From Nannochloropsis oceanica (lineage: Eukaryota > Sar > Eustigmatophyceae > Eustigmatales > Monodopsidaceae): a stretch of DNA of 64,000 nucleotides. Location of the stretch: contig CP038116.1 of assembly GCA_004519485.1 (NCBI GenBank), forward strand, positions 434,001 to 498,000, read 5' to 3'. Each line of letters opens with the position of its first letter. Positions within the stretch are counted from its first letter, which is position 1. This document shows positions 4,197-56,053 of the stretch, one piece after another. A program made the position numbers and the translations under genes. A model generated the notes under the pieces. That model worked only from the letters and a program-made list of their open reading frames with translations. It did no database searches and was not told the DNA's origin.

Positions 4197-5086
4197 GATG
4201 TGATGACAAAGCTGCTGCTGGTGTCACCTCTGGTGCTGTTGCTGCTATTATCCTGGGTCTTTGGCCGCCTGTCTAGTGAGGAAAAGGGTGGAAAGGTGAG
4301 ACTGGGGTCCTGTGTAGTTAAAAGAACAAACCTACTTTTGGCCCCAAATCCTTCACACACGTCCCACATGCACCTTCTACTTCTAACTTAGATGAGACAC
4401 CCCGGATGTAAACTTGCCTGCCTACTGCTCCAGTGCTACCGATCCTGTGTTTGGAGAGGAGGCCTGTTGTGATGGAGTGGTGGAGAGGAGTGGATGGAAA
4501 ATTGGGGTCATGAGCAGTGGCCGCAGAAAGAAGTGAACGTCTTTTCGAGAAGCATTGTGAGAGGGGTAGAAAGCAGCGGATGGTGCGTATGGAGGCGAGC
4601 AAACTGAGCTCGCCGCAGACACTCAGAAATCCTCTAGATTGGGCAAATCTCTATGGTTTACAGGCCTGGATAGGCGGAGTGAGTCATCGTGATAGGAGAA
4701 ATGCGGGACTCCACCCTATGCTTCGGTATTGCTTGGCTGCCTGCCCGCCTGCTGATGCGACCGACCGCGAGTGGGTGATGGATGATGAATGAAGGCGAGC
4801 GATCTGCCGGAGGTGAAATTGACCCGATGAACTGGATCATCCAGGGACTCATACATTCAGTCTAGACAGGATTGTTACGTACCTCGTACCTATCGACGCT
4901 GAGGCCGTTCCTGCTAGCCTACAGCTACGTCAGTCTTGGGTCTGTGTTCGCCATCATCCACGCTCTCTCATCATTCCTCCGAGTCCTCGCTGTCATCGCC
5001 CATTCGATTTGATGCAAGCTCCCTTCCCGCCATCATACGCTGTACGCAGATAGCTCAGGCCCGGATAGGGCGCTGCTGCTACCGAC
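4197..5086. promoter_or_regulatory. Divergent intergenic region, DnaJ / PIG-M
   Basis: About 0.9 kb between two divergently transcribed genes, so it should hold both promoters and 5' UTRs. The short open frames inside are neither conserved-looking nor supported by splice sites. I see no clear TATA element. Confidence 0.4.
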
Positions 5087-6484
5087 ATGGCACACACTCC
5101 TCCTCCCGCTTCTCCAAATGCTTCGCCCATCTTCGTTTTTGCTTTGGCCCTGGCAGTTCGTGTGGGGATGTTGGGCGTGGGAGCCTGGATGGACCGGGCG
5201 TCGAGCAGCGTCAAGTACACAGACATTGACTACCTGGTCTTCAGTGACGCGGCACGTTTTTTATACCAAGGCGGGTCGCCTTACGAGCGGGACACATATC
5301 GATACACGCCGTTTTTGGCTTGTCTTATGCTGCCCAACCTGTGGCTGCACCCGGCCTGGGGAAAGGTTCTCTTCATCGCGTCTGACTTGGTTGTGGGTTT
5401 GCTGGTCATGCGCATTTCTGCTTGGACAACGCATTACCCATCATTATTAATTGCATCAGCAGCAAAACGGGGGAGCGTCCCTCCAACCGCCGCCTCTTGG
5501 TACTCCCATCCCCTTCTCCACGCTGCCCTCTGGCTCCTCAACCCCCTCGTCATCAACTTTTCCACCCGGGGCAGCGCAGATACTCTGGTCAGTGCGTTAG
5601 TACTTGCCACCGTCCTCTTCGTCCAACAAAATCGACCTGTCCTGGCGGGAGTTTTCCATGGAGCAGCGGTGCATTTTAAATTGTACCCTATTGTCTTCTC
5701 CATTTCCTTTCTGGCGGCCTTGTCCTCGGCTCGGCCTGCAGAAGTAGATGAGGAAGATAGGAAAACCCGCCTGTTCTGGCGTCGCCTTAAAATGGTTATC
5801 GATAAGGAATGCATTCTCTTTACAGTTGTAAGTGCAATGACCTTCCTTTTTCTCACCCTCCTTGCCTTCCTCCTCTACGGCCAGTCCTTCCTCCAACACG
5901 GCCTTCTTTACCACCTCACCCGTACCGACAACCGCCACAATTTTTCCCCGTGGTTCTACGGAATCTACCTAGACTTTGAAAGCGAAACTAGTCGGCACCT
6001 CCTCGGTCTAGCAGCCTTTCTCCCTCAAGTCCTCCTCCTTGCCTACACCTCCTTCCTCCTCGGCCCCCGCGACCTCCCCTTCTGCATCGCAATCCAAACC
6101 ATGATTTTTGTCGCCTTCAACAAAGTCTGCACCGCTCAATACTTCGCCTGGTACTTCTCCATCCTTCCCGCTGCGGGTCCCACTTTAGCCTCTCTCCCTT
6201 CTTCCCATCCTCCTTACCTCCCTCTTATCTTGGCGGGGGCATGGCTTGCGGCGGTAGGGGGGTGGTTGTGGTGTGCATATCAGCTTGAGTTTCTGGGGGA
6301 GAATACATTCTTCTGGACGTGGATCATGTCGATTACTTTTTTGGGGGTGAATGTCGCGGTGCTTGCATGGTTGCTGGAAATGTGGGGGAAAGGGCAACGG
6401 GAAAGGTGGGGGGAATATGGGAGGAAGGGGAGGAGGGGGGAGGGGCTAAGAGAGAGGAAAGCACGAAGGTTAGGGTGGACTTAA
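5087..6484 (+). CDS. PIGM: GPI mannosyltransferase 1 (PIG-M/Gpi14 family)
   Basis: Single exon, 465 residues, close to the family's usual length (about 400-430). The first transmembrane segment is followed by the lumenal catalytic DxD-type motif (YTDIDYLVFSDA, Asp46 and Asp48), then the family block YRYTPFLACLMLPN. At least eight further hydrophobic segments follow, with HFKLYPIVFSISFL and FYGIYLDFESE as recognisable PIG-M blocks. Enzyme role: adds the first mannose from dolichol-phosphate-mannose to GlcN-PI in the ER lumen during GPI-anchor synthesis. The C-terminus is basic. The start ATG is the first in frame after the divergent region. Confidence 0.92.
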   Translation: MAHTPPPASPNASPIFVFALALAVRVGMLGVGAWMDRASSSVKYTDIDYLVFSDAARFLYQGGSPYERDTYRYTPFLACLMLPNLWLHPAWGKVLFIASDLVVGLLVMRISAWTTHYPSLLIASAAKRGSVPPTAASWYSHPLLHAALWLLNPLVINFSTRGSADTLVSALVLATVLFVQQNRPVLAGVFHGAAVHFKLYPIVFSISFLAALSSARPAEVDEEDRKTRLFWRRLKMVIDKECILFTVVSAMTFLFLTLLAFLLYGQSFLQHGLLYHLTRTDNRHNFSPWFYGIYLDFESETSRHLLGLAAFLPQVLLLAYTSFLLGPRDLPFCIAIQTMIFVAFNKVCTAQYFAWYFSILPAAGPTLASLPSSHPPYLPLILAGAWLAAVGGWLWCAYQLEFLGENTFFWTWIMSITFLGVNVAVLAWLLEMWGKGQRERWGEYGRKGRRGEGLRERKARRLGWT

Positions 6485-11208: not shown

Positions 11209-13966
11209 CTACGCCGCCACACTTTCCTCCTCCTCTGGGCCTCTCTCCTCCTGCTCCTCCTCCTCCTCCTCCCTCTCCACCTTAATCGCCTCTCGAAACC
11301 GCCTCCCCGGCAAGATAATGATATCCCCGTACGCCATTCGCTGCTCCAACTGCACAAAATCCCACGTCTTCAACTGCAGCAGCTCCCAAAAGAACTTGGC
11401 CACGTTCGCCCTCGATGCCTCCGCTGCCAACGTTTGCAGCGTCACTCCCCTCTTCCTCCCCTCCTTCCCCCTGAGCTGCCGGCGGAGGAAGGTCAGAATC
11501 TTGACCGTGTTGGGGTGCCACACAAAGTTTACCTCTTCCTCCACCTCGCCCTGCCCTCGAGGCTGACGCAAGCGCGCCTTAATCCCACCTTCTTCTTCCT
11601 CGTCCTCCTCCCCCCCCTCCCCCTTCGCCTCCATGCCCATCATCACATCCTCCTCAAACCCCATCCCACTAGATCGACGCTTGCTCACCGATGGCGGCTG
11701 GAAAGCTCCCTCCTCCTCCCCTCCTTCCGAGGAAGGAGGAAGCGGCAAGTACTCCTCATCGTCCATCCGAAAATCATCCCCGTCCTGCATCATCATCATC
11801 TCCTCATCTCCCCTCCATCCCGTCCTCATCCCTTCCCCTCCCCCCTCTTCCCTTTCCTCCATCCCCTTGCTCATCCTCCCGACCGCCTCCCCCGCCAACA
11901 GCAGCGAATCCCTTCCCTCTTCCTCTACCGTCTCCCTCCTCCCTCCCTCCCCGGCTCGCGTCTGCTCAATTTCCCCTCCTTCTCCCCTCCCTCCCTCCGC
12001 CCTCTTCGCCACCCCCATCTCTGTCATCTCCCCAACCACCATCGTCAATCGGAACACCTCCCGGAGGTCCTCAGACAGTCCCTCCAACGTCGGCACCTTC
12101 ATCCGAAGCTCCACTGCCTCCATCGCCGCCGCCCTCCCCGCCCGCCCTCCCTCCCGCCTTCCTGCCCGGCGGACCCGGTCGCGGGGTCGGACGCGAGGCA
12201 AGCAGATGTCGTGGTACTCCTGCAGCTGGGCTTTGATCTGAGCAGTCGACAAAATGGTAGTGGCGTCCAACCGCAACAGCCGCGGCTTCTTCTTCTTCCG
12301 CTGCTGCTGCTGCTGCTGTTGCTTCATTTGGCTGTCCGGTCCCAGCATCACCATCTCGTCCTCCGCCGCTGCTGCTGCTCGTGCTGCTTCTCGTCCTCCT
12401 CCCTCCATGGAATCTCCGAACGACAAGTCCGACAATCCAAACGACCCCCCTCCCCGCGCTCCCTCCCTCCATCCCTCCCCTTCCGTCCCCTCTTTCTCCA
12501 ACTCCTCCTCCTCCATGGGTGGCGGCATATCATCCTGCATGAACATCATGTCACCCGGCTCCTCATAATACGGCTCCTCCCCCCCCTCCCTTCCTCCCTC
12601 TTTCCCTCCCATCCCGTAATCCGACACTCTCTCCTTCCCTCCCTCTTTCCCTGCCTCCCCCACCTCCAAACTCGCCCTCCCCCTCTTCAAGGACGACCGC
12701 CTCCGACTCCCGTCCGCGTCTCGCCCCAACTCGACGTCGCTGTACCTCCCACTGTCATCCTCGAAACTTGTCTCCCCCCCTCCTTCAACCCCTCCCTCCC
12801 TCCCTCCCATCGTCTCATCCAAGGGATCGAAGGGACCCCAGTCCTCCAACTCCACCTCCGGGTCGAACATTGAACTCTGTTCCAACAAACCTCTCCCTCC
12901 CTCCCCCCCTCCCTCCCTCCCTCCCTCATCGTGCAAGGTAATCCTCTCCCTTCTCGCCAGCGTCTGCGTGGCCGCCGCCACCCACTGATCTGCTATCGGC
13001 AATGCATTCAACGTCGACAATCCTCCCTCCACCCCTCCCTCAAATCCCCCACCTCCAAACACTCCCTCCCTCCCTCCCTCCCTCCCTCCTTGGAAGGCCG
13101 CGAAGTCCAGCAGGTCCTGGTCGAACTGACCGAAGTTTTGGACGTTGATCGAGGCCAGCGGTGCCTCCGAGGCGCCTATGGGCAGGTCAACGATACCCGG
13201 ACGAAAGGCCTATAGCAAGAGGAGGGAGGGAGGGAGGAAGGCAGGCAGGCAGGGAGGCAGGGAGGGGTCAAATGAGTGGACTAGGTATTGGTCGTTGATG
13301 CAATCGAGACAGAAGCCCCTCTAGACATGGCCCCCATGCCCGGACAAAAGGCGTACTGGAGGAAATCAGGGGAGAGGGGAGGGAAGGAACGAAGGAAAGG
13401 AGGGACGGATCGAGACACAAGTCTCAAGAAATGGATCGCCAGGGGACGAGAGGGGGAGGGAGGTAAGGAAGGCGGGGTGGAGGGCACGTACCATCTTGAT
13501 CTTGGTCAAGGCCTGGGAGCAGTCCTCCATCAGGTACTTTACTTTGCGGGAGTAAATGCGGACCACGCCAAGGAGGAGGTGGCCGGAGACGCGGAGGGCG
13601 AGGGGGACGGTGGGATGGACAATGGAGTCTGGAGGGAGGGAGGGGGGGAGGGAGGAAAGGGAGCTGGTGACAGGAGGTAGGGAATGACAGGAGGAACAAG
13701 ACCACAAGGATGGAGAAAGAAGAACATAAGAGTCGTTGGTAGAAGGAGATGACTGCCGAAATTTAGTCTCTCAATGAGAGAGGGGGGACGGAGGAGAGAG
13801 GGAGGGCAGGAGGAACGGAAGGAGGTAGGGAGGGGTACGTACCAACGGACTTGGTGATGTCTGTCTGGAAAACCTGCATTTTGGTCAGCTTTTTGTCCCA
13901 ATGAGCCGCCAGCCAGACCTTGCCTAGAGGCCCCTTCTTTGTCAGGAGGCTCGAGGCGAAGAACAT
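11209..13966 (-). CDS. RAD21: Cohesin kleisin subunit RAD21/SCC1
   Basis: Exons 13843-13966, 13492-13628 and 11209-13209; 753 residues, phases 1 then 0. The N-terminal kleisin domain is unmistakable: [55 protein letters not shown], then [10 protein letters not shown]. The C-terminal winged helix that binds SMC1 closes the protein ([19 protein letters not shown], then [14 protein letters not shown]). The long middle is acidic and Gly-rich, with many GGREGG runs from GGGA repeats and a polyQ run near 12300. Role: closes the SMC1-SMC3 ring for sister-chromatid cohesion and is cut by separase at ExxR sites; ELGR in a Ser/Asp-rich context is one candidate. Intron 2 carries a copy of the exon 3 start. 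Confidence 0.95.
13314..13352 (-). other. Intronic echo of RAD21 exon 3
   Basis: Inside intron 2, on the coding strand and behind a good acceptor (CCTCCAG), sits a stretch reading [15 protein letters not shown]. It matches the true exon 3 start [14 protein letters not shown]. Counted base by base without gaps, 27 of 39 positions agree with 13171-13209, including 16 of the first 19. Using its acceptor would end the protein a few codons later. Confidence 0.8.
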
Positions 13967-17426: not shown

Positions 17427-20400
17427 TTAGTTATTCTTCCTCCGCGACATCATCACCATTCCGAACACTGCCAACGCCACCACCGTGCTTCCCATCGCCA
17501 CAAGCACCACACTTCCTGCTCCCCCTCTTCCTCCCTTCCCTCCACTTCCCACTCCACTGCTCCTCCTGGACTTTGGTCGCCTTCTCTTAATCAATGTCAC
17601 CTTCAACACCGTTAATCTAGCCTCCGCCGCAAAGGCTAACATCTCTTCCAATCCTTCGTCGGTATCCACGGTTATCACATCCTTCTGCTCATCCACATAT
17701 GTCCACGCCCGTTGCGCCGTTGGGACATCCATCGCCTTCCCCACCGCCTCAATCGCCACTTCGAACGACTCCGTCGGGACCGTCACAGTCTTGGTCGCCC
17801 CATCATCTCCCACGACTTTCAACCGGAAATGAGGCCCTTCCACACTACTACTCCCATTCCTCGACCGCGGAGTCGGGACAATTACCATCGATGACGCCGC
17901 TCCCCCCAACATCGACGGCGGTGCTCCTCCTGGTGATGTCAGCACGTGGAGGTGGTGCTGTGCTTCTCCTCCTGCAAGGACCGACGCGCTCTCTAGGTCT
18001 TCGTGGTCTGCAGGATGTGCCTGCATATGTCGCTGCTCGTCGGGGTCATACCCCCCACCCCTTACAGTTGACCTCGCCGTTAACACACTCCCAGGAAACC
18101 GCAACTGCCGTGACGGGGCATGAGAGCTTAAGTCAGACGCCGACGACTCATCCTCGTAATCGTCCCTTCCAGCTTGAGCCCAGAATTTGCGCCCCCCATC
18201 TTCCTTCCCACAGACCACATGCACAATCTCCATAACATCCACTAGGCCCACCAAGCTCCCATCCCGGCTATCCGTCACGGGCAAGTGCAGATATTGATTC
18301 TCGCGCATCATGTACAAAGCTTCCAATACTGAGGCCTCCGCTTCGATCGTATCAGGCTTCGGAGTCATCACGCTCGAAACGGCCGTAAAATCAGGAGAGA
18401 GCTCCTGCGAGACCACGCGTCCCAGCATGTCTTTGGGTGTAAAGATCCCGACCAGGCTCCCGTCGTCGTCGACGACTAAGGCAGCCTTCCGACAGCGGCT
18501 CATGGTCTCAGCGGCTGTCCGTACATTAACAGTAGCGCGAACGACATTAGCAGTGGGCCCCTGCTGAGCTAGCAAGGTGCGGAGGGAGGGGTTGCAGTCC
18601 TTACCAGGCTCCGACTCCTCCTGCAGCAGCTGCATCAGGCGCAAGAGCGCGCCTTGCCCACCTTGGGCGATGCCAGCAGAAGCAGCAGCAAGAGAGGAAG
18701 CGGCCCTCTCCTCCTTGCGCTCCAGACGGGTGATTGCGTCGCTCAAGCACTTGGCAATGTCCAACAGCCCCGCCACGTGCCCTTGCGGGCCAATAACGGG
18801 GAGGTGGCGGAAACGACCTTTCACCATGGTGGTCAATGCATCGAGGCTATCGCTATCATGTTGCACCGACTTGGGGTTCTCGGTCATGACGGCGCTGATG
18901 GGCGTTTCAGCTTCTCCCTTGTATTGAGCAATCACCCGACGGGTCACATCATTATCAGTCAAAATACCCAAAACTTTCCCAGCCCTCGACGTGATAAGCG
19001 CGGCATCCGTCCGCCTCACAACCATGGCTTTCACTACCTCCGTGACCGACATCGAGCTATCCACCACAAGCGGGTTACGGGGACGTAACTTGGAAACAGG
19101 TCGAAAGGAGGAGTTCTTCCTCCCTACACCTCGAGCCATCGGAGGAGGCATGCGCCCCATCCCCGAATTGCCACTGCGCGCCGATCCCGCATCCGACTGC
19201 GAGTCCCAGCCATCGTCACCCTCTCCCCCCATGGTCGAAGCCCAGAAAGAGCGCCCGCCATCGTCCTTGCCCGTCAGCTTGCTCAGACTTTGCACAATCT
19301 CCATAGCACTCAACAAGCCCAAAGCGCGGCCTGTCCCCTCCTCCACCACAGGAAGGTTCAGAAAGTGCCCGTCGCGCATCGTGTACAAGGCGTCGAGCAA
19401 TGACATATCAGGCGTGACCGAAGCAGGCTGCGGGGTCATAACAGACGCCAGGGTTGTTTCCTCGGGCGACAAACCCTTCGCAACCACCCTCCCCAGCACG
19501 TCCTTAAATGTCACCAGCCCCAGCAGTCGCCCTTCCTCGCCAACGACCAAGCAAGCCTTCCGCGCTGTTGCCATGTCCTTGGACGCGGCCAGGACACTTG
19601 TATCTCCCGTCAGCATTGCTGTTGCTTCTGCGCCTGCCAAAATCTCCTCCACAGTCGGCAGCACGCTTTCCCCCTCTTGCCCACCCCCATTTGCCGAAAG
19701 CAGAGTCAGCAACGTCGATACCAATGCGGCCTGGTTCTTGCTCTTTCCACTGCGTCCTGCTAAAGCCATGGCCATCGAGGCAGCTTCTAAGGTCTTATCC
19801 GCCTTGCCACTTGACTGTTTTTCCCGCCTGTCCTCCATCTTCTCCAACCGCGTAATGGCATCGTTCAAGCACTTGGCAATGTCTAAACACCCTACAACAG
19901 CATCTCCGCCATCCAACACCGGCAAATGCCTAAAACGCCCCTTGACCATCACCGTCAAGGCGTCCAAACAATCATCCTCTAACGACACCGTGGTAGGGTT
20001 AGCCGTCATCACGTCTGCGCCCAGCGTCTCCTCACTGGAAAGTTCGTTTGCCACCACTCTTCTCGTCACGTCGGTATCGGTCAGAATCCCGCTCAATGCT
20101 CCATCTTTCCCTGTAAGTAAGACCGCCGCAGCCCGCCTTTCAACCATCACCCGCGCAATGGCCGCCACACTCGTCGTTGCCGCCAGCACCAAAGGCTTAT
20201 CCGGCCGCAGCTTAGACACAGGACGAGTCTTAGGCTGCTGCTTTTGACGGTGCCCCTTGCGCGAAATTGCACCACGCAAGGAACCAGCTTCCGACTGCGA
20301 GTCCCAGCCATCGTCACCCTCTCCCCCCATGGTCGAAGCCCAGAAAGAGCGCCCGCCATCGTCCTTGCCCGTCAGCTTGCTCAGACTTTGCACAATCTCC

Positions 20401-23400
20401 ATAGCACTCAACAAGCCCAAAGCGCGGCCTGTCCCCTCCTCCACCACAGGAAGGTTCAGAAAGTGCCCGTCGCGCATCGTGTACAAGGCGTCGAGCAATG
20501 ACATATCAGGCGTGACCGAAGCAGGCTGCGGGGTCATTACAGACGCCAGGGTTGTTTCCTCGGGCGACAAACCCTTCGCAACCACCCTCCCCAGCACGTC
20601 CTTAAATGTCACCAGCCCCAGCAGTCGCCCTTCCTCGCCAACGACCAAGCAAGCCTTCCGCGCTGTTGCCATGTCCTTGGACGCGGCCAGGACACTTGTA
20701 TCTCCCGTCAGCATTGCTGTTGCTTCTGCGCCTGCCAAAATCTCCTCCACAGTCGGCAGCACGCTTTCCCCCTCTTGCCCACCCCCATTTGCCGAAAGCA
20801 GAGTCAGCAACGTCGATACCAATGCGGCCTGGTTCTTGCTCTTTCCACTGCGTCCTGCTAAAGCCATGGCCATCGAGGCAGCTTCTAAGGTCTTATCCGC
20901 CTTGCCACTTGACTGTTTTTCCCGCCTGTCCTCCATCTTCTCCAACCGCGTAATGGCATCGTTCAAGCACTTGGCAATGTCTAAACACCCTACAACAGCA
21001 TCTCCGCCATCCAACACCGGCAAATGCCTAAAACGCCCCTTGACCATCACCGTCAAGGCGTCCAAACAATCATCCTCTAACGACACCGTGGTAGGGTTAG
21101 CCGTCATCACGTCTGCGCCCAGCGTCTCCTCACTGGAAAGTTCGTTTGCCACCACTCTTCTCGTCACGTCGGTATCGGTCATAATCCCGCTCAATGCTCC
21201 ATCTTTCCCCGTCAGTAAGACCGCCGCAGCCCGCCTTTCAACCATCACCCGCGCAATGGCCGCCACACTCGTCGTTGCCGCCAGCACCAAAGGCTTATCC
21301 GGCCGCAGCTTAGACACAGGACGGCTCGGAGCTTGTGCCCCCGCCTGCTGCTGCTGCTGCTGCTGCCATGCCCCGCCCTTGCGAGCCGAGCCAATGCTGC
21401 GCATAGAGCCCGCATCCGACTGCGAGTCCCAGCCATCGTCACCCTCCACGCCCATGGTCGAAGCCCAGAAAGAGCGCCCGCCATCGTCCTTGCCCGTCAG
21501 CTTGCTCAGACTTTGCACAATCTCCATAGCACTCAACATGCCTAAGGCCTTCCCCGTATGGGAATCAACGACAGGCAAATTTAAAAAGTGCCCGTCGCGC
21601 ATCGTGTATAGCGCATCCAACAAGGACATATCCGGCGTAACACTGGCAGGCTGCGGAGTCATCACCGCCGCAAGTGTTGTCTCCTCGGGCGAGAGACCCT
21701 TGGCAACCACCCGCCCCAGCACGTCCTTGAATGTCACCAGCCCCATCAGCTCCCCCTTCCCATCCACAACCAAACAAGCCTTGCGCGACGCCGCCATCTC
21801 CTTACTCGCCGCCTGAACACTCGTCTCCCCCGATAGCAATGCCGCTGCATGCGAGTCGCCCATCATTTCCTCGACATTCGGCAAGGCGCTAGCATCCTGC
21901 CCCGCCGCCCCACCGCTGGCTGTTAGCAGTGCTAGCAACGTCGATACCAATGCGGCCTGGTTCTTGCCCTTTCCACTGCGCCCTGCCAAAGCCATGGCTA
22001 TGTTTGCTGCCTCCAACTGCTTGTCGGCCTTGCCACTCGACTGCTTCTCCCGCCTGTCCTCCATCTTCTCCAACCGCGTGATGGCATCGTTCAAGCACTT
22101 GGCAATGTCCAAACAACCCACCACCGCATCCCCCGAGTCAAGCACAGGAAGGTGGCGGAAGCTCCCCCGCACCATAAGGGTCAAGGCGTCCAAACAATCA
22201 TCATCCAATGACACCGTAGTAGGGTTAGCCGTCATCACATCCGCAGCAAGCGTCGCCTCGGGTGACAAATCTACGGCCACCACTCTTCTCGTCACGTCGG
22301 TATCGGTCAGAATCCCGCTAAGTGTCCCATCTTTCCCCGTAAGTAAGACCGCCGCAGCCCGCCTTTCAACCATCACCCGCGCAACGGCCGCCACACTCGT
22401 CGTCACCGCCAAGACCAAGGGCTTGTCGGGGCGCAGTTTGGAGACGGGACGTGTCTGTTGAGCTTTGCCACTACTTGACTTCGTGGGTGTGGAGAAATTC
22501 AAGGCCGAGGTTTTCTTGCGGTGATTTCGGGCAGGAGAAATTGAGGATTTGGAAGGAGAGAAGGTGCTACTGGCGATAGAGCGAGCAGGGGAGGAGATGG
22601 TGGGGGAAGAGAAAGGGGCGGTGATTCGTGTTGACGAGAAAACTTCCACAACTTCAAGTGGTGCTACGGGTAGGGCAGCACGCAGCACACTCAATTCAGC
22701 CTGCGTCCGATCTACCTCCTTTTGCACAGGCTCACAAGCGACAAAGTTTTTGGCGGCCAGAAGCTTGTCCATCTCTGTCTTGAGCTCCTTCAGTCGCGCC
22801 TCGAGCTGGGCCAAAGTTGGAATGGTAGAGAGCTCCCACTCCAACGCGTCAAGCTCCTTTTGCAGACCATCACATACCGCAAATTCTTTGGCAGCCAGTC
22901 GCTCGGCAAGATTCTTCTTAAGAGCAACGATCTCTGACTCAAGATCCGGGCGGCTCTTCTTACTCTTTTTCCCGCCAATGGGAGACTTCTGTTTATCATC
23001 CACCCCCGTCGACGCCGCTGCTTCCTGTGCCTCCTTTTTCTCCTGCATCTTGAGCCCTTCCAACGCCACTTTCGCCTCTTCCACCTGCTGCTGCAACCGA
23101 TCACACTCAGTGTACTTCCGATTCTGCGCCGCCTGCTTCACAGCTGCCTCCAACTCTTCGATCTCCACTTCCTTCTCCGCCGCCGTCGGGAAGACCTTCC
23201 TCAGCCCCACCAAACGCGTCACTTCCCCCTGCGCCTTCTGACAGGCTGCAAAGTTCTTTTCAGCCTCGAGGCGCACTAACTCCTGCTCTGCCACCTTGAT
23301 CGCACCGTCCAATTCTCCTCTTGAAGCGAATCCCGTAGCTTCGGCCGCAGAGGGCTCTTTGGCATTAAGCACATCCCGGAACTTGATTTCCATCACCTTC

Positions 23401-26400
23401 ACTTGCAGCTGGACCTCATCGCAAGCCTTGAAATTCTTTGCGCGAAAGTGCTCGTCAATCGTTGCTTGCAATGTCGAAATTTCATCCAAGACCTCTTGGC
23501 GGGTAGGGAGGATCTTGCGGAGGTCAACCAATGTCTGAAGCTCTGCCTGCAGCTTGGAGCATGCCGTATAGTTCTTTCTCCGAGACATTTCCTCAATCGC
23601 TACTTCCACCTCTCCTACCTTCGCTTCCAGGCTAGCACGGGTGTAAGGTAGGGGTTCACGGGCTTCACGTACCAGGACAAGGGCAGCCTCCACCATTTTG
23701 ATCTTGTCCGCCACCGCCAAACACTCATCGAAAGCCTTCCGCTCCTCCGCCTCCTTCGCCGCGGCCTCCAATTCGATCACAGTGCGAATTAAGGTATTTT
23801 CGTCCATCTTGTTATAAGGATTGGTCAACCGTCGATACTCCTGCACGCACAAAAACCGGCGAGCCTCCGCCTGGAACAAAATTATCCCTCTTCGCTGGAT
23901 CACGAAAGCCCTTCGGGAAGACCGCATCCTCCACATTGCCTGTGTCGCCGACATCCCCCTCACCAGCGCTCGGAAGCGTTTTTGTGCCATGTACCGTCGC
24001 AGCATCGCCTGCAACTGTACCGCCGCCCTCTCCCTTCTGACGCGCGTCCACCCCCTTTGTATGGTCCGCGCTCCCAACTTCACTCTCAGTTCGAGCAAGC
24101 GTGCAAGTTTTTCGGCCATACTTTTTCGCATGAACACCTTGCTCACCCCCATCTGCCACTCTCGCTCATCCACACTCAGCATCTTGCTCAATTTTTCTAT
24201 CAGATCCGGCAAGCTACGGCACCCAGGTACCAATCTTGCGAATTGCTTGTACATCATCGAGTGCGTCTCCCTCAATGCGTATCCCTGTTGCCTAATTCGA
24301 ATCGCCTCCATCATGCCTGCATACTTTAACTGCCGCAAGATCTCAAGCGTGTGAAAGTGCCCTGCCAGCTTCTCGTGATTCGGCTTGATACATCTCACGT
24401 ACCTCGGGGTCGTCATATCCAACGTCTCCACCAAGGTGGCGAGACTGGTCCGGAACTGCGACGACAAAGACGCCTCCCTCAACCTCGATCCTCCCCCTCC
24501 CCTCTTCTTCCTCCCTCCCCCTCCCCCACCACTACTACGCTCTTCCAAATGCTTAACATCCAAGAAGATGTCGTCACGAATCAAGGGATCAGTGCTACTC
24601 AATGCCAGTGCCCGGACATTCTGATGCAAATTCTCCACATTTCGCTCTACAAACCCATCCACGTGGTACAGAACCATCCCCGCGTAATGCTTTACCCCGA
24701 AACACACATCCGAATGCAACCGTGGCTTGACATACGCCTCCGTCTTGCCCGCAAACGTCGTGTTCAACGCCGACAAAAAGCGCCCGTCGGCATTACTCGG
24801 CCCGCCACCGACACTTTTGACATCATCAAGTATATTAAACAAACAAGGGGCTCCCGCTTTTCCTCCCCCAACCGTCGCAGGCGTCGCCGTTCCACCCTCT
24901 CCTCTTCCTCCCGTGGGCATCGTACTGGACTCGCGGTAGTAGCGGCTGTCAAGGAGGGCGAGACAGGGTTGGTTGTCATTGAAGGAGACGTAGCTCCAGT
25001 CGATCCCTTCTCGATCATAATCCTCTTGCTCCATCTCGAAGATGTGCCGGTTGAATTGGTTTTGCAAGGTCTCGTTGGCAAAGTTGATCAAGAGCTGCTC
25101 GAAGGAATTGTGCTCGAATGCCTCAAAACCATAAATGTCCAGCACGCCCCTGATTGTAAAAAGATATGATGGAGCGAGGGAGGGTGGGAGGGAGTGTAAG
25201 TGGTTGGATTTGTGTCGACTGGGCAAGCACCAACATCGAAACAGAATACAGATCATCACGCCCACTCCCTCCCTCCTCTCTGGCCCCCTCCCCCCTCCTC
25301 CTTCTCTCAACCCGTCCCATTTTTGATTACATGAATCCCCAGCACTTCTCCGCCGCGATGGTGACATTCAACTTCCGCACCAACCAATTAAAAACGCACG
25401 AATACACCGTCTTCGCCAGGGTATCGCGCTTATCCGCCGCCTCCTCCGCATCATTTGGCTTTACCAGCGTCTCGTCCTTCCTCGTCGTGATCTGCTTTGA
25501 GCAAAATGTTTTGGACATCTCCCCGGCATCCAATCTTAGGAATCGTGCCGCCAATTCCAAATGCTCCTGAGTCTTCGGGTCCAGCACCGACCCTCCCTCC
25601 CCTGCGTCCAAGAAATCCACGTTCCCCAAATGCAAGACCGCAGCCACTAGCTCAAGCATCGTGCGCTGCAGCTTGGCATCTAGCCCTATTGCCGCCATAC
25701 ACTCCATTGTGACTTTAAAATCGCCCTCATCGCTTTTTCCCGCAATATCAGTGCAATGGCCGTGTGTCAAGTACCTGAAAGCCCCCGTCCCCTCCTTCTG
25801 ATCCAGACACAAATCCGCCAATATCTGCTTGTCCCCCCCCCGAATCAACTGGTAAAACACGTGGAAATTCCTCTCCCCCTCCGACTGCCGCACAATTCTT
25901 GTCTTTTCCAACAAGTAGTTCGTGATCTCCGCTCCCACAATCCGCCCTGTGGTCCCAAACTGAATCTTGACGTACTTCCCGAACCTCGAGCTGTTATCAT
26001 TCATCAGCGTCTTGGCATTCCCGAAGCTCTCAAGGAACGGATTCGTCGACAACACTTTCTTTTCCAGCTCTCCTACTTCCAAATGAGGCCCCGCTGCGGC
26101 TATGGCTTTTCCTGAAATCGGTGATGTGGCCGCCGCTCCCTCCCTCCCTCCTCCCCCCCCGGACATCGTGACCTTGTAGTGGGTGATCCTGGCAAGGTAT
26201 TGCATGATGATCTTCATCGCCTCTGTTTTCCCTGCGCCACTTTCGCCCGAAATAATGATGGATTGATTTGCTGGGATCTTGCTGCCGTCGTTGATAAATG
26301 CCACGTAGGATGCATCCGCTACCTTGAAGAGGTGTGGGGGCAACTGCTCTCTCTCGCAGGTGTGGTAGTGGATCATGGCTTGCTCGGAGTAGAGCCCATG

Positions 26401-26949
26401 GTTCCATTTGTAAGGATTGATGCTTATGAGGATGGGCCCGACGAACGTATACACCTCGTCGCGGGTGTAGCGAGAACGGAGGGTCTCCAGGAGGGACATT
26501 TCTAGAGCAAGAAAGGAAGGACGGAGACGGGGGAGGGAAGATATAAGCCAGGCTGACTCTCCGATCCTACATGGAGAAAATGAAAGTGGATAGAACCTAT
26601 ATCGACTTACCCACCATTTCCTGCCTGCCTCCTCCCTACCTGAGAAATCGTTCAAATCCAGGATATCGGGCACCCCCTGCTTGGCTTCGGCCTTGACCGT
26701 CAACAACCCCCCGGCACTCAAGCGATGCACTTGGTCCATCTCATCCCGCACCACCACGACATCCTCATTGGGGAATTCCTGAACGACTTTGACAGGCTTG
26801 TAAAGCATCTCGGCTTGCTTTGCCTCGTCGACGGTGCTGCTGGACAGGGTGACGGGTTTGCCATCTTTTCCCACGAGCTTGCTGGGATCGAAGTAGACCT
26901 CGCGGACAACCCTACCCGTAAGCACGTCCATGTTGCCGGAAGCGGGCAT
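17427..26949 (-). CDS. Giant myosin with UVR-like, 16 CBS, PB1 and membrane-anchor tail
   Basis: Exons 26640-26949, 25331-26501 and 17427-25149; 3,067 residues, phases 1 and 2. Motor: SH3-like N-terminus; P-loop GESGAGKT (189-196); switch I NDNSSRFGKY (about 271); switch II DIYGFE (498-503); actin-binding and converter parts to about 850 (TPRYVRCIKPN). About four IQ motifs follow (850-935). Residues 948-1311 hold seven roughly 45-residue helical hairpins with a K-x-F/Y-x-x-C core (KNYTACSKLQ, KNFKACDEVQ, KNFAACQKAQ, KYTECDRLQQ and so on), like UVR motifs. Four CBS units start at 1394, 1770, 2136 and 2510, each with four CBS motifs (RPVSKLRPDKPLV start, GGRSFWAS end). PB1 spans about 2934-3018, and a tail anchor (VVLVAMGSTVVALAVFGMVM) ends the protein. 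Plant CBSCBSPB proteins have one such unit plus PB1 and anchor. CBS pairs commonly bind adenine nucleotides, so an energy-responsive membrane motor is an inference. The 17427-25149 exon is uninterrupted, which argues against an annotation artefact. Confidence 0.93.
19192..20225 (-). repeat. CBS repeat copy (C-terminal of the near-identical pair)
   Basis: This 1,034-base stretch inside the myosin exon matches 20290-21323 at a fixed offset of 1,098 bases (366 codons). I see about four differing bases (one near 19439, one in the CAGAATCCCG stretch, two in the CCCTGTAAG stretch). It covers most of one four-CBS unit. The first unit (21412-22451) and the last (18190-19103) are clearly more diverged. 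Confidence 0.9.
20290..21323 (-). repeat. CBS repeat copy (N-terminal of the near-identical pair)
   Basis: Partner of 19192-20225. The near-identity begins abruptly at TCCGACTGC and ends at AGGACG. The linkers outside differ: a polyQ/Ala linker on one side of this copy, and a Lys/Gln-rich linker (RKGHRQKQQPKT) between the copies. Confidence 0.9.
25242..25263 (-). other. Intronic echo of the myosin exon 3 start
   Basis: In intron 2 the coding strand reads GGGCGTGATGATCTGTATTC, against GGGCGTGCTGGACATTTATG at the true exon start (25149). The first seven bases are identical and nine of the first ten agree. Similarity fades after that. Confidence 0.45.
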
Positions 26950-28104
26950 GCTATGTGAAATGGGGGAGAGGAGTCAGATGAGGGAGGGCGTTCATTTGCT
27001 TTTTCACCACATACAATCAAGTCAAGCGGCGGCGGCATTCCCCGGAGCCCATCAGCCTCAGTAGTAGGCCTGGGCGATCGACCAGCCGCCGCAAAATTCA
27101 CCTCTGCCTCTGACGCTCTGTTGCAATTGTCGGCCTTCGGTGTGCTGACCAAGTTTAAAACCAAGCCAGCGAATTCCCGCGAAGTTTGTAGGCCAATGAT
27201 GGCCCCCAATGCCCTGTCTAACCCGTCAAGGTGGTCGCTAGGAGTGGCCAGGCCGACATATTCGCCTTGCCTGCATTATCCCTCGACCCCCCCCTGTGTG
27301 GCTCTCATGCTAAGACATACCTTGACTATGCAGCAGATCCCAGGCCAAGGCAAAGACAGTAGGCCGCTAGCCTCCTTGTGTTGTGGCTTGGGTTTTCCCC
27401 CCCCAACGCCTATCAAATCTAGTGCTACTGCTGCTGCTTGATCCTGTTGATATGGAACTAGAGTAAATGTGAAACAGTGATGGCGATCCGAAAAGGCACA
27501 TGTCATATCCGACACACTTTTTGTCGTGCTTGAAGTAATTCGGGTTTTACGATTTTCGTGAGTGGTGTCCAAGGCACGCTGATTTTTCCCCTGGTCGTTG
27601 CAATGTGGCAAGGCAGAGAAGGCAGCAGCCGAAACTCGCCGTCGCCACAACGGTGGCGAAGTTCGCTCTGGTCCCTGGTCTCCGTGCCGCTAAAAAAAAA
27701 GGATCAGTAGAGCGTATCCCTGTATAAAAGGTTGTGTCTTGCATGTGTCCTCGGTCAGAGAGGGACATGAAGTGGAGGCAAGAGCAACTTGACGTCGTTG
27801 CAACTAGGATGATGCCGAGAATGATGGCTGAGGAACTCACACACTGCCTTCCCTACGCCCCTATTTTTTCATTTTACACATCCATTAGCGCAGGTTTTCC
27901 AGAGGCTCTCGTGCAGAGAGACCGCTATTTGCCGCATCCGGAGTCTATTCTCTCAAGCAGCATCACCATTCCTTTCTCCCCGCTACGCCCTAGACTAGAC
28001 GCCACTCCATATAACGTGAAAGGAAGCGTACCAAGGCCTGTCGCCGCTATCGTCCAAGCGTCACCCCCATAAACGTTACCCGCTTTTTCTTCTCACAAAC
28101 CAAC
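26950..28104. promoter_or_regulatory. Divergent region, myosin fusion / DIX-ELMO gene
   Basis: About 1.15 kb between head-to-head genes. On the minus strand an acceptor (TTTCACATAG) lies one base upstream of the myosin ATG, so at least one 5' UTR intron is likely; a fitting donor (GATT|GTATGTG) lies at 27013-27015. The frame upstream of that donor does not join in phase with the motor, so it is taken as untranslated. Promoters of both genes must lie in the remainder. Confidence 0.5.
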
Positions 28105-29490
28105 ATGCCCCCCCCCATCCTCGTCACCTACGAAATCATTGGGCCCGCCGATGCGGCCGAAACCGGGTTGACATCCTCCTTTGAACTCCTGGGCTATAAC
28201 ACAAGCAGCAACTTCTCAAGAGAAGTCCCGACCGTCCAAGCCCTGCGCGAAGCCTTCCCCTACCTGGGCAAATTCCATTTTCGAGCGAAAATTCCCCTTC
28301 CCTTATCCACACCGTCACAATATGCGTGGTTAGACCTAGCCGACGACGACGCTCCCTTGCCTGTATGGGTGGAGAGGAATGCACAGCAATGCGTGGAAAT
28401 ACGGGCACTGCCATTGGTCTTGCCAGAGGCGCCAGGAGAGGACGAGGAGGAAGATGGGGGGGAGCTAGACTTTAGTGAACCTGATCTGGATCAAGATATT
28501 GTAGAGGCGTCAACGTGTGGAGGTGGAGAAGGGGGATGGGAGAAAGGATATGGGTATGAAGCACGAGCCCGCTCTCGTCAGATGGAAGAACAAGGACGGC
28601 AATCCTCCTCCTTATCGTCATCCTCCCACCCCTCCAGCAGCTGGTCTAGACAGCTCAAAGACGCGGGTGAGTCTGTCCTGACCTCAGACGTCGCCCGGGA
28701 CCTGACCAAAAAGGGCCTGAAAGTAGGGAAGCAAGTCGGGAAACAAGTGAATAAACTGTGGAGGCTCGTAGGGGAAGGACTCGCTGGAGGAGGAGGGGGA
28801 GGGGGAGGAGAAGGACGAGAAGAAGGAGAATACCCCTCCTCCCCCCATGGGCCAAGTGCGGGTGCGGTTCGGTACTTGAGGAAATGGGAGGAGGCACTGG
28901 TGACCCCGCCAGACGCAGAATTGCTTTCGACGCTTGGGGCGGCCTTGTTTCCTCCCGGGGAAGGGGGGAGGGAGGGAGGACCGGGAGGTAAGATAAATTG
29001 GAGAAGGGCGGGTTGTGAGGGAGAGGAGCCCATCAGGGATTTACGTGGGACGGGGAGTATGTGCGCGAAGTGTTTGATTTATACCGCGAGGACCTACCCG
29101 AGAAAAATCCAGCAAATTTTGAGTAGGGGGGAGGAAGACGAGGAAGAAGGGAGGGAGGGAGGGCACGCGTACCCTCTGGTGGGGGTTGCGAATAGTCTGA
29201 CGTTGATGTTGGCAGATATTTTTAAGTTGAGGGATGGGAGATATGTGCATGTGCAAAACGTGTTCTGGCCTTTGTTTGAAGGGGGGGGATACGGAACGAT
29301 AGAGGAGGTGTTCAGTGCGGCCCTTGGGTACCTGGACCGGAGGTGGGTGGAGACGGAAGCGGGGATAGAGGGGTTTCCACGGCTGGTGCAGCATGTGAGG
29401 AGGGGGTTGGAGGGAGTTCTAGGGCAGGCTCCAGTGAGCTTACCTCACTTTCAAGCCATGGCGGAGGAAGCAGGACTGTACATGGAGTGA
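28105..29490 (+). CDS. ELMO-domain protein with an N-terminal DIX-like domain
   Basis: Single exon, 461 residues. The C-terminal half is an ELMO/CED-12 domain: INWRRAGCEGEEPIRDLRGT with GSMCAKCLIYTARTYP (the W-x-G-x-x-x-x-P-x-x-D-x-RG core), then YPLVGVANSLTLMLADIF. ELMO and ELMOD proteins act with small GTPases, as Rac exchange partners or Arf-family GAPs. The N-terminal 110 residues (TVQALREAFPYLGKFHFRAK, QYAWLDLADDDAPLPVWVER) look like a DIX domain, which polymerises head to tail in Dishevelled and Axin; this call is tentative. The middle is acidic, then Ser-rich and Gly-rich, with GREGG runs. It sits head to head with the myosin gene, which fits an actin or membrane role by context only. 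Confidence 0.75.
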   Translation: MPPPILVTYEIIGPADAAETGLTSSFELLGYNTSSNFSREVPTVQALREAFPYLGKFHFRAKIPLPLSTPSQYAWLDLADDDAPLPVWVERNAQQCVEIRALPLVLPEAPGEDEEEDGGELDFSEPDLDQDIVEASTCGGGEGGWEKGYGYEARARSRQMEEQGRQSSSLSSSSHPSSSWSRQLKDAGESVLTSDVARDLTKKGLKVGKQVGKQVNKLWRLVGEGLAGGGGGGGGEGREEGEYPSSPHGPSAGAVRYLRKWEEALVTPPDAELLSTLGAALFPPGEGGREGGPGGKINWRRAGCEGEEPIRDLRGTGSMCAKCLIYTARTYPRKIQQILSRGEEDEEEGREGGHAYPLVGVANSLTLMLADIFKLRDGRYVHVQNVFWPLFEGGGYGTIEEVFSAALGYLDRRWVETEAGIEGFPRLVQHVRRGLEGVLGQAPVSLPHFQAMAEEAGLYME

Positions 29491-43310: not shown

Positions 43311-45916
43311 TCACTGGGGGGAGAAGGGCTCGGGGAGGCTCAAGAGGTGGTCGCGCCTTTGCAGACACTGCTCGTGGAACTCCTCTGTGCAAATACAAAG
43401 GTCGTCATGTGTGGATAGAGTGGAGGAAGCATAAGTACGGAATCATGGTAGCTCGTGATTCCCATTGACTGGACCAACCCTTTTTTCACGTCCGCTTGTA
43501 CGTGCTCCTCCCTCCCTCCCTCTCTCCCTCTCCTCTTCCCCTCCCACCCCCGCACGTACCCAAGCGTCGCTTCACCTCCTCTTTGTGATCCGCCAAAGCG
43601 TGCAATGCGCCCATAATGCATTCTAGGATCACCTTGCTGACCCCCTCGTGTTCCTCTCTCTCCAGCGCCAGCTCGGCCTGCAGCTGGGTCAGTCGTTGCT
43701 GGTTCCGCGCGGCCCGGCTCTCGAGCTCCACCACCACCTGGCTGCGGAGGTGAAGGACTTGCTCCTCCACCCTTTCAACGTCTGCTGACTGCAAAAGGGG
43801 GCGAAAGAGAAAAGTGGAAAAGGGAGAGTGGATGGTGAGAGAGTGGTAAAGCATGCGCTTGAAAAGCAACAACTCAAATATGAAGGCTGACACGACTTGA
43901 CATGGTACCGACTCTACACCCCTGCCTCGCTCCTTCCCTCGCTCCCCTTACCTTCTCTGCCATGTTCGCCTCCATACGCGCCTTCTCCGACCTGTACCCC
44001 TCCTCCTGTTTCTTCACTTTCCCCTCCATCACCTCGAACGCAGCCACGGCCTCCGCCACCTCCTCCTCGCTCTTGGCCTCCTCATCAAGCATTTTCAACA
44101 CCGAAGTACGCGCCTCGTGCACTTTGTCCAGAATGACATTTTTAATCTGACCGAGGCTCGGGCGAATCACCCCCTTAATGTCCAAGCCAATCAAATCCTG
44201 GGGCTCCGCGGAGGCCGAGACCGCTCCTTTGCTCACACTCATCTCATACTGGATCCCATTGCTATTCCTTGCCGTGATGGGGATCAATTGTAAACTTGCC
44301 GCTTTGCCATTGAAGGTCTGCGCGGCCGTTTCCAAATCCACCACCGCGCGACTCAACTCCATCTCGGCCTCCCACAGGGCCTTTTGCATTTTCCCCTTGT
44401 GCTCCCTCGCCTTTCCCAATGCCTCGTCCAGCCGTACCCGTTCCTGCTGCATCCGTGCCACGTCCTCCGGGCTTAATTCCTGCCCTGCCACCACCTGCTT
44501 GAGCTCGGCCGTCTCGGTACGCACCATTTCCAGCGAACGGTACAGCTCCGCCAGCTCCCCCTCCCTCTTCTCCACCTTAGCGGCCAACCCCTCCCGGTGC
44601 GCAGTCAGCTGTTCAATCAACGTGCGAAACTTGCCCAAATCACTCTCGTAGTCCGCCCTTCGCTGTCGCAACCCCGGCAACGCTGCATGCCGCGTTCGGC
44701 ACACCTGCGCCTCTGCCTGCATCTGGGCAATGTTGGCTTCCAAGACGGCACACTGAGCCTCCACCTCTCCACACCGCCCCTCAAACGACCCTACCAAGCC
44801 ATCCTCTAGCTTCTCGTACAACTCGTCGTCTCCGTCCAAGAACGCCTTGTATGCCTTCCCCAGATACTCGAAGAGCGCCTTCTCGTCCGCCCGTTCAAAG
44901 TCATCCACGCTGCTGCTGCTGCCACTGCTGCCGGCCAAGGCCGCCTGGTTCGCCGCGTCATTCTGGACCTCCTCGTCATAGGTCAACAGCTCCACCATCC
45001 AAGTAATACTCGCCAAGAGCGTCGGCCACGTATGCATTGTCCCCACTGCCTGCATGCTTGCCTTCGAAATCGGGAAAGGATAGTGCATCGCCTTGAAAAA
45101 CTGGAGCACCTCCTCCTCCAGTTTCCCCGTGATTCGAAAATTCGCATCCACCTGCCTAAACAAAAAGGAGACGATATATGTGAAGTCTTTCGCAGTCGGC
45201 CTCTGCAATATCTTAGCACTGAACGGCTGGTCATAGTTGTGATCCGTCAGGTAGTTGATCAGCCCCCGAATGCTTGTTTGGATGTAGCTCTTGTCCGTGT
45301 TGGGTCTGGGGTCTTGCCGGGCATGAGAGCCGTAGGCAGTGCTTTTGCGACTGAGCCCCGTTGACGACTTCCGGGGGGGGGCATTGCTGTTGCGGAGCAT
45401 GGAGGAGGCGGTGGTGGAGGAGAAGGAAGTGCCGCTGGAGGCGGTGGACGAGGAGGAGGGGTGCAGAGAGAGACGGCCGCCCTGTAAGCGAGTCGATGTA
45501 GCGGGGAAGAGGGAGGGAAAGAGTGGTGTTTAGAAAATGGAAGTGGCATCTCCGCTCAGCTTGATTTAGATTGAGGGATGTGCACCCTTGCTGTGTAAGG
45601 GGATAACATATGCTCACATACAGGTGAGGAAAGTGGCTGGTCGTTCTGTGGCGCGGCCGCGGAAGACAAGGAAGATCTAGCCATGCGCCCCGCTCCCCAG
45701 AAACGATCTCCCTCCCGCTGCTGAGTCACATGCGCACACAACTCTCAACGTCTATATCCTCGTTTTCAGATGTACCTGTGGCTTGGCTTGCTTGTCAAAG
45801 TTGGGTCCCAAGGAGGTGCGCGAGACGCCACGGCTGGGCATGCCCATGCTCTGTCGCTGGTTGAAACCGCTGGAGGAGAGCGGCTCCAGGGTGCCCCGGC
45901 GCCGGCTCAACGCCAT
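43311..45916 (-). CDS. NDC80: Kinetochore protein NDC80/HEC1
   Basis: Exons 45776-45916, 43952-45481, 43560-43788 and 43311-43384; 657 residues, phases 0, 0 and 1, close to human HEC1 (642). The basic, Ser/Thr-rich N-terminal tail (MALSRRRGTLEPLSSSGF) is followed by the calponin-homology domain: DPRPNTDKSYIQTSIRGLI, DFTYIVSFLFRQVDANF, FPISKASMQAVGTMHTWP, SITWMVELL. Long coiled coil follows to the end (KVEKREGELAELYRSLE, ERVEEQVLHLRSQVV). NDC80 with NUF2, SPC24 and SPC25 links kinetochores to microtubules; the basic tail is an Aurora B target in other organisms. Its start lies 868 bases from the divergent kinesin start. Confidence 0.96.
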
Positions 45917-52804: not shown

Positions 52805-54024
52805 TCAGCTTTTTATTAAATTACCTTTCTTCTTGTTTTTCTCTATATTGCTCTCCACCCAATTGTCGAGCCAGCTCATCACCTGGTTGTAGACCGTGAA
52901 GGACATCACCAGCTTAGGGCACACCTACGACGAGTGTGTGTGTGGAAGAAAAAAGGGGGGGAGGGGGGTAGCAAAATCATGAGCGGCTTGAAGTGATTGT
53001 TGTGCGCGAGAACAAGTTGTAGATGTGCCGGGGAAGCGTCAAGGGGTGCAAGGCAACTCCCTCCACGATTGTGGCCGGCAGCCTACCATGAGTACCTGCC
53101 CACTCGCCAGCCTCCCTCCCTTCCACCCTTCCTCCTTCGCCCACATACCACCATGAACTTTGTATTCAAGCCCTTAAACAACGCCCAGGGCCCTTCCTTC
53201 CTCAACAGGTCCCTCAGAATCTGCCGTCCTTTCATCACCTCCCCCGATGGCGACAGACTCGCCCTCTGCACCCTGGCCTTGATCACGTCCGCCGGACTGG
53301 AAACCGTCAAGGACCACACTGCTCCCGTCGTGCTCGCTATTAGCTCTTGCAATAGCGTTGCATCCTTATAATTCTCTAGATGAAATGCCTTTTCTTTTAT
53401 CAACGCAGATCCACCGAACAAGGCAAAGGAACCCGGGAAATTTCTTAGAACGGTCCAAGAGGCCCCTCTGTAAAGTCGAAAGCCCTCTTGTTCGACTATT
53501 TGAAGGAAAGATCGTCCACGTAGGGAGGAAGCGTTGGTTTGCGCAATTATTTTGAGGGTATCTAGGGGGATGAAGACAACTTCGACCGTGCCCATTATGG
53601 CGGCAGCGGTGGCAAATTCAACGGAGCGGGCTCGTTTTGGGCCCGCAAGAGATATGAAGCTGTCGTGGTAAGTGGCATGGATATGATCAAACAGGAAGGG
53701 TTGCAGGCCGTATGCAGCAGTGCGTTGACATATCTTGTAGCTAGCACCGAACTTGAGGCCAACATAAAGGGAACGGAGCTTGTCAAAAGGACCCGAGTTG
53801 AGTTTATCGCGGAAGACGACGCTCCGTATCTTTCCGTACTTATCAGAAAGAGACAAGCCCTCCGCAGTCAACAAACGGCCTTGATAAGTGATGATGCGCT
53901 TGCAGCAGGTGTCGAGGGGTTGGAAGATCAGGAGTTCGAAGAGGGCACTGCTGCTGGAGCCGACCAGGCGAGCGATGGAGTGGTGGCTGCTCTTGCCGCC
54001 ACGTGGCCCTCCCCGCGGGACCAT
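52805..54024 (-). CDS. Mitochondrial carrier (SLC25) family protein, possibly Yhm2-like
   Basis: Two exons: 53149-54024 and 52805-52924, phase 0; 331 residues, slightly above family size. The three repeats carry carrier signatures: QPLDTCCKRII, IPLDTLKIIAQ and SPADVIKARVQ, with ends such as GFRLYRGASWTVLRNFPGS and GPWALFKGLNTKFMVVCPKL. LKFGASYKICQRTAAYGLQP resembles yeast Yhm2, a citrate/oxoglutarate carrier, but the substrate call is only a suggestion. It would lie in the inner mitochondrial membrane. The first ATG is at 54022-54024; the frame upstream has only non-ATG codons. The intron contains TCTACAAC in a context like that of exon 2. Confidence 0.85.
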
Positions 54025-56053
54025 AACCTTATTTTCAGTCTGGTTAAGGGGCCCACACGATATGACGTGTTGTTTAGTGGTTGTGGGCCACTCTAGGCTG
54101 TTGCATAGGAGGGTGGAAAATAAGCGCAAGGGTTGGTCTGAGATAGGTAAGGCGGCTGTACGACAAGCAAAGCGTAGCGCAGGCGAGGGTGCTTCGTGAG
54201 CATGCTTTAAGCATGTCGCCTGTATATGACTGCTGGCATGCGCTGGCCTGAAGGTGCATGTGCATGATCATCCCAAAGGTGCATCGAGGGCGGCAAATTT
54301 GGCTGTAACGACGACGTGGCGTGCGGGGGAGAGAGACACAATTGAAAGACCGATTTGGGTCCGCATAGGCAGCTTCACACGTCCTCACACTGATCACGGT
54401 TGTCCTAGTACATGTAGAAAGTGGGTGGGGATGCAGTGGGGCATGTACTAAAGCTACGTAAAGGCAAAAAGGGATCAGTCAAAATGCCAGAAGACGATCT
54501 CGATCTGGCCTTCACTACAAAGCTACAAAGAATGTCTTTTCGTAGCCTCGACGTCGTTTAAGGCTCAATTTTCATGTCATGAGACCCCAAGCTATCACCT
54601 TAATAACATACTACGACAGGAAGAGAGGGAGGAAATGTCGTGTGACTACCAGTTGGCAGTGGAGCCCGCGCCCGTGCGGGTGTACGTTGCGTGGCCAGGA
54701 GATGGATGAGAAGCCGTCGGCACATGCGTGCCATCGAACACGCCGCACCCCAAGCCACACACGCTATCTGCCAGCCGGTACGCAGCATTGCACGCATTTT
54801 TCTTTTGCAATACGATGAGCCTCACTACATGCTGTCTCATGAGAACTTCCCAGCGCCGCTCCGTTTCCGGAATTGAGCTCAATCCGCACATACTCTATCG
54901 GAATGAGGATAACAGGACGTGCAATAAAGCACCTCTTGAGCCGCCGATGAAATGCAATCCGTGGCAATCATGCTCACCATTTACAGAGTCTCACGGCAAG
55001 AGGTGACATATGCGCCCTTCTAGACGACTCGATAACAGCCATACCGAGAGAGCTAGAACGGTACGTATGCCCTTCTCCACGCTCCCTATCGCCCATCTCT
55101 CACCCTCATCTACCAACCAAGAACCAGACCCTTCTCCCGTCCGTCGTCAATGATGACAACATACGTCGCTATATTGATGAAATCCGTGAAACAAAAAATT
55201 GAACAAACAAAAAAGCAACATTGACTGAGAACGACGACGACGAGGAGGGAGTCTTCCGTACCGGCAACTTAAGCTTCAGGACTTGCAAGTAATTTTTTCA
55301 CAATCTCACCACGTCTTCCTCCTCTGTATCTCTCTTCTTTGTCCACTCAGATAGTAACCGAGAGCGGACCACTTTTGTTGTGCTAGCTCCATCTTTCTGT
55401 GTAAGAACTGAAGGTGGGTACGACGAACCCAAAATCAATATACGTAATTCAACGGGCTCCCAGCAAAATGTAAATCACGCATTGGGCGCGTTCCAAACAG
55501 AAAAAATAAACGAGAGGCAAGCACGAGAGACTGCGCCAGAATACTTACTGTGCTTGTTTGGAATACCTTGGTATTGGGCTCACTCTTTCTCTCTCCTCTC
55601 TCTCTCTAAGTCGGCGCACACTGTCCTCTCCCGTCCCATCCTCTCTCCTATGTAAACACGATCCTATATATTTCCCGCGTTACTTTGTTCTTTTCTTTTC
55701 CCATTTCTTTTTCTGCATCGTCATCTCTGAATCTTGACATCAATCCAAACCAATCGACAGTCACGATCCAAGTATATATCTAAGAATACAAGCTTACCTT
55801 TGCTGAAAAATTGCTCCACGAATAACCTCAGGTCACTCTCTCCGCTTCTCATCACATGATCACCTTTTAAACAACAACCATATAATTTCGGAAGTCATCA
55901 AGCTCGTGCAGGATTACCACGTTAGAAGAAGATCCGTACTTCCCTTCCTTTTTTTCTCTTACTCAATCTCATTCTTTCTTTAGCAATCTCTATATTTGTT
56001 TTCCTTGGCTATATTCTTCCCCCTTCGTTCAGACGCTCTCATCAATTTCTCGT
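54025..56053. other. Intergenic region, carrier promoter side / NEK 3' side
   Basis: About 2 kb. The first part must contain the carrier promoter. From about 55,200 on the sequence is A/T-richer with TATATA-like stretches (55660-55800). No coding region is convincing on either strand. Confidence 0.55.

Follow-up and report, generated by a model that had tools for sequence, protein, structure and literature searches.

The window analysed here, a stretch of 64,000 nucleotides from contig CP038116.1 of the eustigmatophyte Nannochloropsis oceanica (positions 434,001 to 498,000), carries a gene in which a complete myosin motor is followed by an IQ-like neck, helical hairpins, an array of CBS motifs, a PB1 domain and a predicted C-terminal membrane anchor, and its product very likely adds one more member to myosin class XXIX, known since 2007. 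In that year Odronitz and Kollmar described the class from every stramenopile species then sampled, and the passages of their paper on its architecture give a layout of motor, three IQ motifs, short coiled-coil regions, up to 18 CBS, PB1 and a C-terminal transmembrane domain (PMC2375034). Compared by description, the present protein has the same motor, coiled-coil regions, CBS array (16 motifs here), PB1 and predicted C-terminal transmembrane domain and shows no established difference; of the IQ neck, two weak stretches are matched. The initial annotation of this DNA had known of no protein joining a myosin to a CBS-PB1 part, a claim which fails in view of the class so described. As a very likely member of a family in print since 2007, the gene by itself is no discovery. 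Possibly new are details of its tail, namely the AMPK-gamma-like module of four CBS motifs, the Asp present in 8 of 16 motifs, the near-identity of modules 2 and 3, and the single Cys of each hairpin.

The gene lies on the minus strand, from an ATG at 26949 down to 17427, and comprises 3,067 codons plus stop in three exons, the donor GT following directly after 26640. The splice sites are predicted from sequence; both introns are of the GT..AG type and the frames are open, and the gene model first proposed stands with its coordinates. Exon 3 is open over 2,573 codons, against a longest frame of 277 codons when the stretch was mononucleotide-shuffled 200 times. Because this single open exon holds the C-terminal half of the motor together with the whole tail, the fusion is real in the assembly; the argument that it cannot come from wrong splicing was therefore sound, and on the same ground we reject a joining of motor and tail by the assembly. 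Intron 1 has a length divisible by three and no in-frame stop, with a 548-residue open frame reading through it, and therefore its retention would add 46 residues just ahead of the motor core.

That the motor is complete is confirmed by the Pfam family Myosin_head, which matches on both sides of intron 2 (379.9 bits in exon 2 and 245.9 bits in exon 3), and by the motifs GESGAGKT (aa 189-196), NDNSSRFGK (aa 271-279) and DIYGFE (aa 498-503), which we take to be the P-loop, switch I and switch II and which are all intact. Glu at aa 447 presumably occupies the TEDS position, and among solved structures myosin Va comes closest to the motor part of exon 3 (E 2.2e-56). Between the neck and the CBS array, a single-sequence structure model with a mean predicted local distance difference test score (pLDDT) of 71.5 contains seven helical hairpins. 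Each has one Cys close to the start of its second helix (aa 970, 1024, 1070, 1130, 1176, 1253 and 1299), and there is no further Cys in the stretch; these residues might bind a ligand, have a redox role or just reflect how the repeat arose. By their place the modelled hairpins would correspond to the short coiled-coil regions of class XXIX. They had been called UVR-like, of which the sevenfold hairpin stands and the homology to UVR is unsupported: Foldseek returns 193 matches to the hairpin model at E <= 10 but none at E <= 0.001, and since the Pfam list, which gives seven families with E up to 5 and may have weak matches filtered out, does not include UVR, the name can denote resemblance only. 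In the genome searched, of 29.26 Mb in 32 contigs, the hairpin stretch has no second match.

The tail contains the sixteen CBS motifs claimed at the outset, found by Pfam with E 1e-118 and grouped as four modules of four. Over the first 335 codons, modules 2 and 3 differ at four, with three of the changes synonymous, which amounts to 4 differences in 1,005 aligned coding bases; at the sequence level, such near-identity in the region 19104-21323 points to a recent duplication or to gene conversion, and the copy number of these two modules may possibly vary between strains. Module 4 shares only 47-48% identity with modules 1-3. All four modules retain T-x-x-D in their CBS motifs 1 and 3, so that the likely nucleotide-binding Asp is found in 8 of the 16 motifs. 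The model of module 4 matches the fold of AMPK gamma, with about 13-22% identity to AMPK gamma and to archaeal four-CBS proteins. Of the 20 families that NCBIfam gave for exon 3, 19 stay under their cut-off; kpsF passes (207.5 against 203.7), which we think is explained by six CBS stretches summing up. Antisense to the CBS modules there is an open frame of 522 codons (20248-21816, plus strand), which codon usage on the opposite strand probably explains.

Downstream of the array, the PB1 domain scores 27.4 bits when its region is scanned alone, above the cut-off of 23.6, and possesses the beta-1 Lys within FRLKVVG. The C-terminal transmembrane anchor of the initial annotation is upheld as a prediction, the sole segment of the protein above a mean hydropathy of 1.6 in a 19-residue window being the C-terminal aa 3036-3062. 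A basic end of six residues, such as the one that follows here, suits tail-anchored proteins.

Taking these features together, we consider it reasonably probable that the gene encodes a membrane-anchored myosin of class XXIX layout which pulls membrane along actin and has in its CBS tail a likely sensor of adenine nucleotides. An organelle membrane would hold the protein by its C-terminal helix, and the motor would move the anchored membrane along actin. Each four-CBS module would fold like AMPK gamma, as modelled for module 4 only, and could bind adenylates where CBS motifs 1 and 3 each supply an Asp, while PB1, with its beta-1 Lys and an imperfect OPCA motif, may associate anchored copies head to tail; adenylate binding would then alter the packing of the long tail and, with it, motor activity or clustering. 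Adenine-nucleotide sensing by the tail is a putative function, made more plausible both by the match of the module 4 model to the AMPK gamma fold and by the motif residues. The full scheme, in which the class XXIX tail consists of four AMPK-gamma-like adenylate sensors that make an anchored motor gated by energy charge, with up to eight sites for adenosine monophosphate (AMP) or adenosine triphosphate (ATP) and with clustering through PB1, is offered only tentatively. If the modules do bind adenylates, organelle transport would be linked to energy state within one molecule.

A number of observations weigh against this reading in its different parts. Membership in class XXIX is drawn from architecture and the likely host rather than from a motor tree, and the relevant part of a 2017 revision gives six classes common to most stramenopiles without listing class 29 (PMC5583752), so the borders of the class may have moved. 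The IQ motifs of the initial annotation are matched in two stretches, but at 18.1 bits they fall under the Pfam cut-off of 20.3. PB1, which we nevertheless regard as borne out, reaches 21.5 bits in a scan of the whole exon, under its cut-off; among solved structures it has no better than a weak match (E 0.052), and the OPCA core reads DEQKD against D-x-D/E-x-D/E, with Gln where the residue is usually acidic. Eight CBS motifs have K (4) or E (4) instead of Asp. Confidence in the CBS model is middling (of its 558 residues, 141 have pLDDT 70-90, 312 fall below 50 and none reaches 90), and the PB1 part of the module 4 model is poor; single CBS pairs match with a Z similar to that of the module 4 fold match, and a shared AMPK gamma fold does not show nucleotide binding. 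As for the literature on the class, a diatom study of 2024 still includes class 29 in five diatom classes, according to its pertinent passages (PMC11420354), and the myosin passages of the Hyphochytrium genome paper do not mention class XXIX (PMC5795050). Searching for the class by name led to the 2007 paper and to one paper on myosin 15. The term CBS is absent from the main text of myosin surveys of 2014 and 2017, and no functional study of class XXIX was found in the literature searched, which was mostly without subscription journals.

The CBS array of the same class XXIX myosin might instead be mainly a structural spacer or scaffold, its length changed by module duplication and with no nucleotide sensing involved, which we regard as possible but rather doubtful. 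A copy number reaching up to 18 CBS in the class, as its published description has it (PMC2375034), would fit such an array, as would the sign of recent duplication or conversion in modules 2 and 3 and the lack of Asp in half of the motifs; conservation of T-x-x-D in motifs 1 and 3 of every module, even the divergent module 4, speaks against it. It is very improbable that a myosin and a CBSCBSPB-type protein were fused here in a way that has no precedent and is confined to this lineage. Here the order of CBS then PB1 is the one ascribed to plant CBSCBSPB and other CBS-PB1 proteins in the descriptions consulted, and module 4 with about half of PB1, taken as a query, has no stand-alone close copy in the genome, its matches being itself, modules 1-3 and C8:592208-592612 (28% identity over part); we reject such a fusion, however, as the passages cited already ascribe this combination to class XXIX across stramenopiles (PMC2375034). 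An artefact of assembly or annotation would draw on modules 2 and 3 being so alike that their copy number could be miscounted, but we give it hardly any credence, for one 2,573-codon frame joins motor and tail and the architecture equals that described for class XXIX (PMC2375034). We thus retain the anchored class XXIX myosin with a likely nucleotide-sensing tail.

Across the genome, myosin heads occur at six places (21 matches), and the present gene, which holds 16 of the 30 CBS matches and one of the two PB1 matches, is the only CBS-myosin found. In a genome this small, the function of class XXIX could therefore be tested by removing one gene. None of the other 14 CBS matches falls inside the stretches examined around the other myosins, the nearest lying about 7 kb upstream of the myosin on contig C10 with a peroxidase frame in between, and Pfam gives no CBS in 12 of the 20 frames of at least 250 codons around the other five myosins, a set by which the many-exon myosin of contig C8 is barely covered. 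Two queries against viral_contigs yielded no confirmed relative.

Two other myosins of this genome may be noted. The one at C2:982263-984686 (minus strand) lies in one long open frame and has IQ motifs, ankyrin repeats flanking a PH domain, and an Aida-type C2 domain. In a 3,048-codon open frame on contig C4 (C4:698968-708111, plus strand), the latter half of a myosin head lies near the start, the first half being in an upstream frame, and at the end lies a phosphagen-kinase domain, the sole ATP-gua_Ptrans match detected in the genome. The best solved match of this domain is arginine kinase 4rf6 (E 1e-68). In the alignment to 4rf6, Ser stands in place of the Cys of SCPSNLGTG, and NEEDH appears as NLEDH; as we take this Cys and NEEDH to be catalytic residues of phosphagen kinases, catalysis by the domain appears doubtful. 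The terms guanido, phosphagen, creatine and arginine kinase are absent from the main text of three myosin surveys, and the C4 gene, read as a myosin-phosphagen kinase fusion, may be worth its own study.

The features of the present gene are collected in Table 1 with its neighbours, which are ordinary by Pfam (10 frames of the window scanned). The window has a guanine plus cytosine content of 54.6%, and an Rfam scan of it gave no family at its gathering score.

Table 1. Positions in the window of the parts of the myosin gene and of neighbouring genes.
Feature	Position	Strand	Remarks
Exon 1	26640..26949	-	start codon, N-terminal region ahead of motor, first motor residues
Intron 1	26502..26639	-	138 bp, GT..AG
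Exon 2	25331..26501	-	N-terminal motor half; Myosin_head 379.9 bits
Intron 2	25150..25330	-	181 bp, GT..AG
Exon 3	17427..25149	-	remaining motor and entire tail; open 2,573 codons
Motor, C-terminal half	24117..25148 (aa 495-838)	-	Myosin_head 245.9 bits
IQ-like neck	23826..24074 (aa 853-935, borders by eye)	-	IQ 18.1 bits, two stretches
Seven helical hairpins	22656..23810 (aa 941-1325)	-	structure model and sequence
CBS module 1	21471..22451	-	four CBS motifs
CBS module 2	20346..21323	-	four CBS motifs
CBS module 3	19248..20225	-	four CBS motifs
CBS module 4	18186..19103	-	four CBS motifs; modelled AMPK-gamma-like
PB1 domain	17565..17834	-	Pfam; Lys in beta-1, OPCA-like acidic stretch
Predicted transmembrane helix	17448..17513 (aa 3040-3061)	-	then six residues SRRKNN
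PIG-M mannosyltransferase	5069-6484	+	Pfam
Rad21/Rec8	11209-13209	-	Pfam
ELMO/CED-12	28015-29490	+	Pfam
Ndc80	43874-45529	-	Pfam
Mitochondrial carrier	53083-54267	-	Pfam

With respect to known systems, the C2 myosin resembles the layout given for class XXXI in the passages of the 2007 survey, plus an extra C2 domain (PMC2375034). The protein studied here shares the combination of CBS motifs and PB1 with plant CBSCBSPB and fungal CBS-PB1 (Mug70) proteins, for which the sections concerned name no motor, and the plant naming scheme given there refers to two CBS domains, against four modules of four in the present tail (PMC2694836, PMC7051960). The likening to plant CBSCBSPB proteins made in the initial annotation was thus fair for CBS and PB1; as to the anchor, the main text consulted on these plant proteins contains no instance of the word transmembrane. 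AMPK gamma and the archaeal MJ1225 and SSO3205 likewise have four CBS motifs per module and a fold like that of the module 4 model. The present protein is distinguished by showing no sign of AMPK partners and by its predicted ligand sites, which are CBS motifs 1 and 3, whereas AMPK gamma, in the account of its sites consulted, uses 1, 3 and 4 (PMC5535039).
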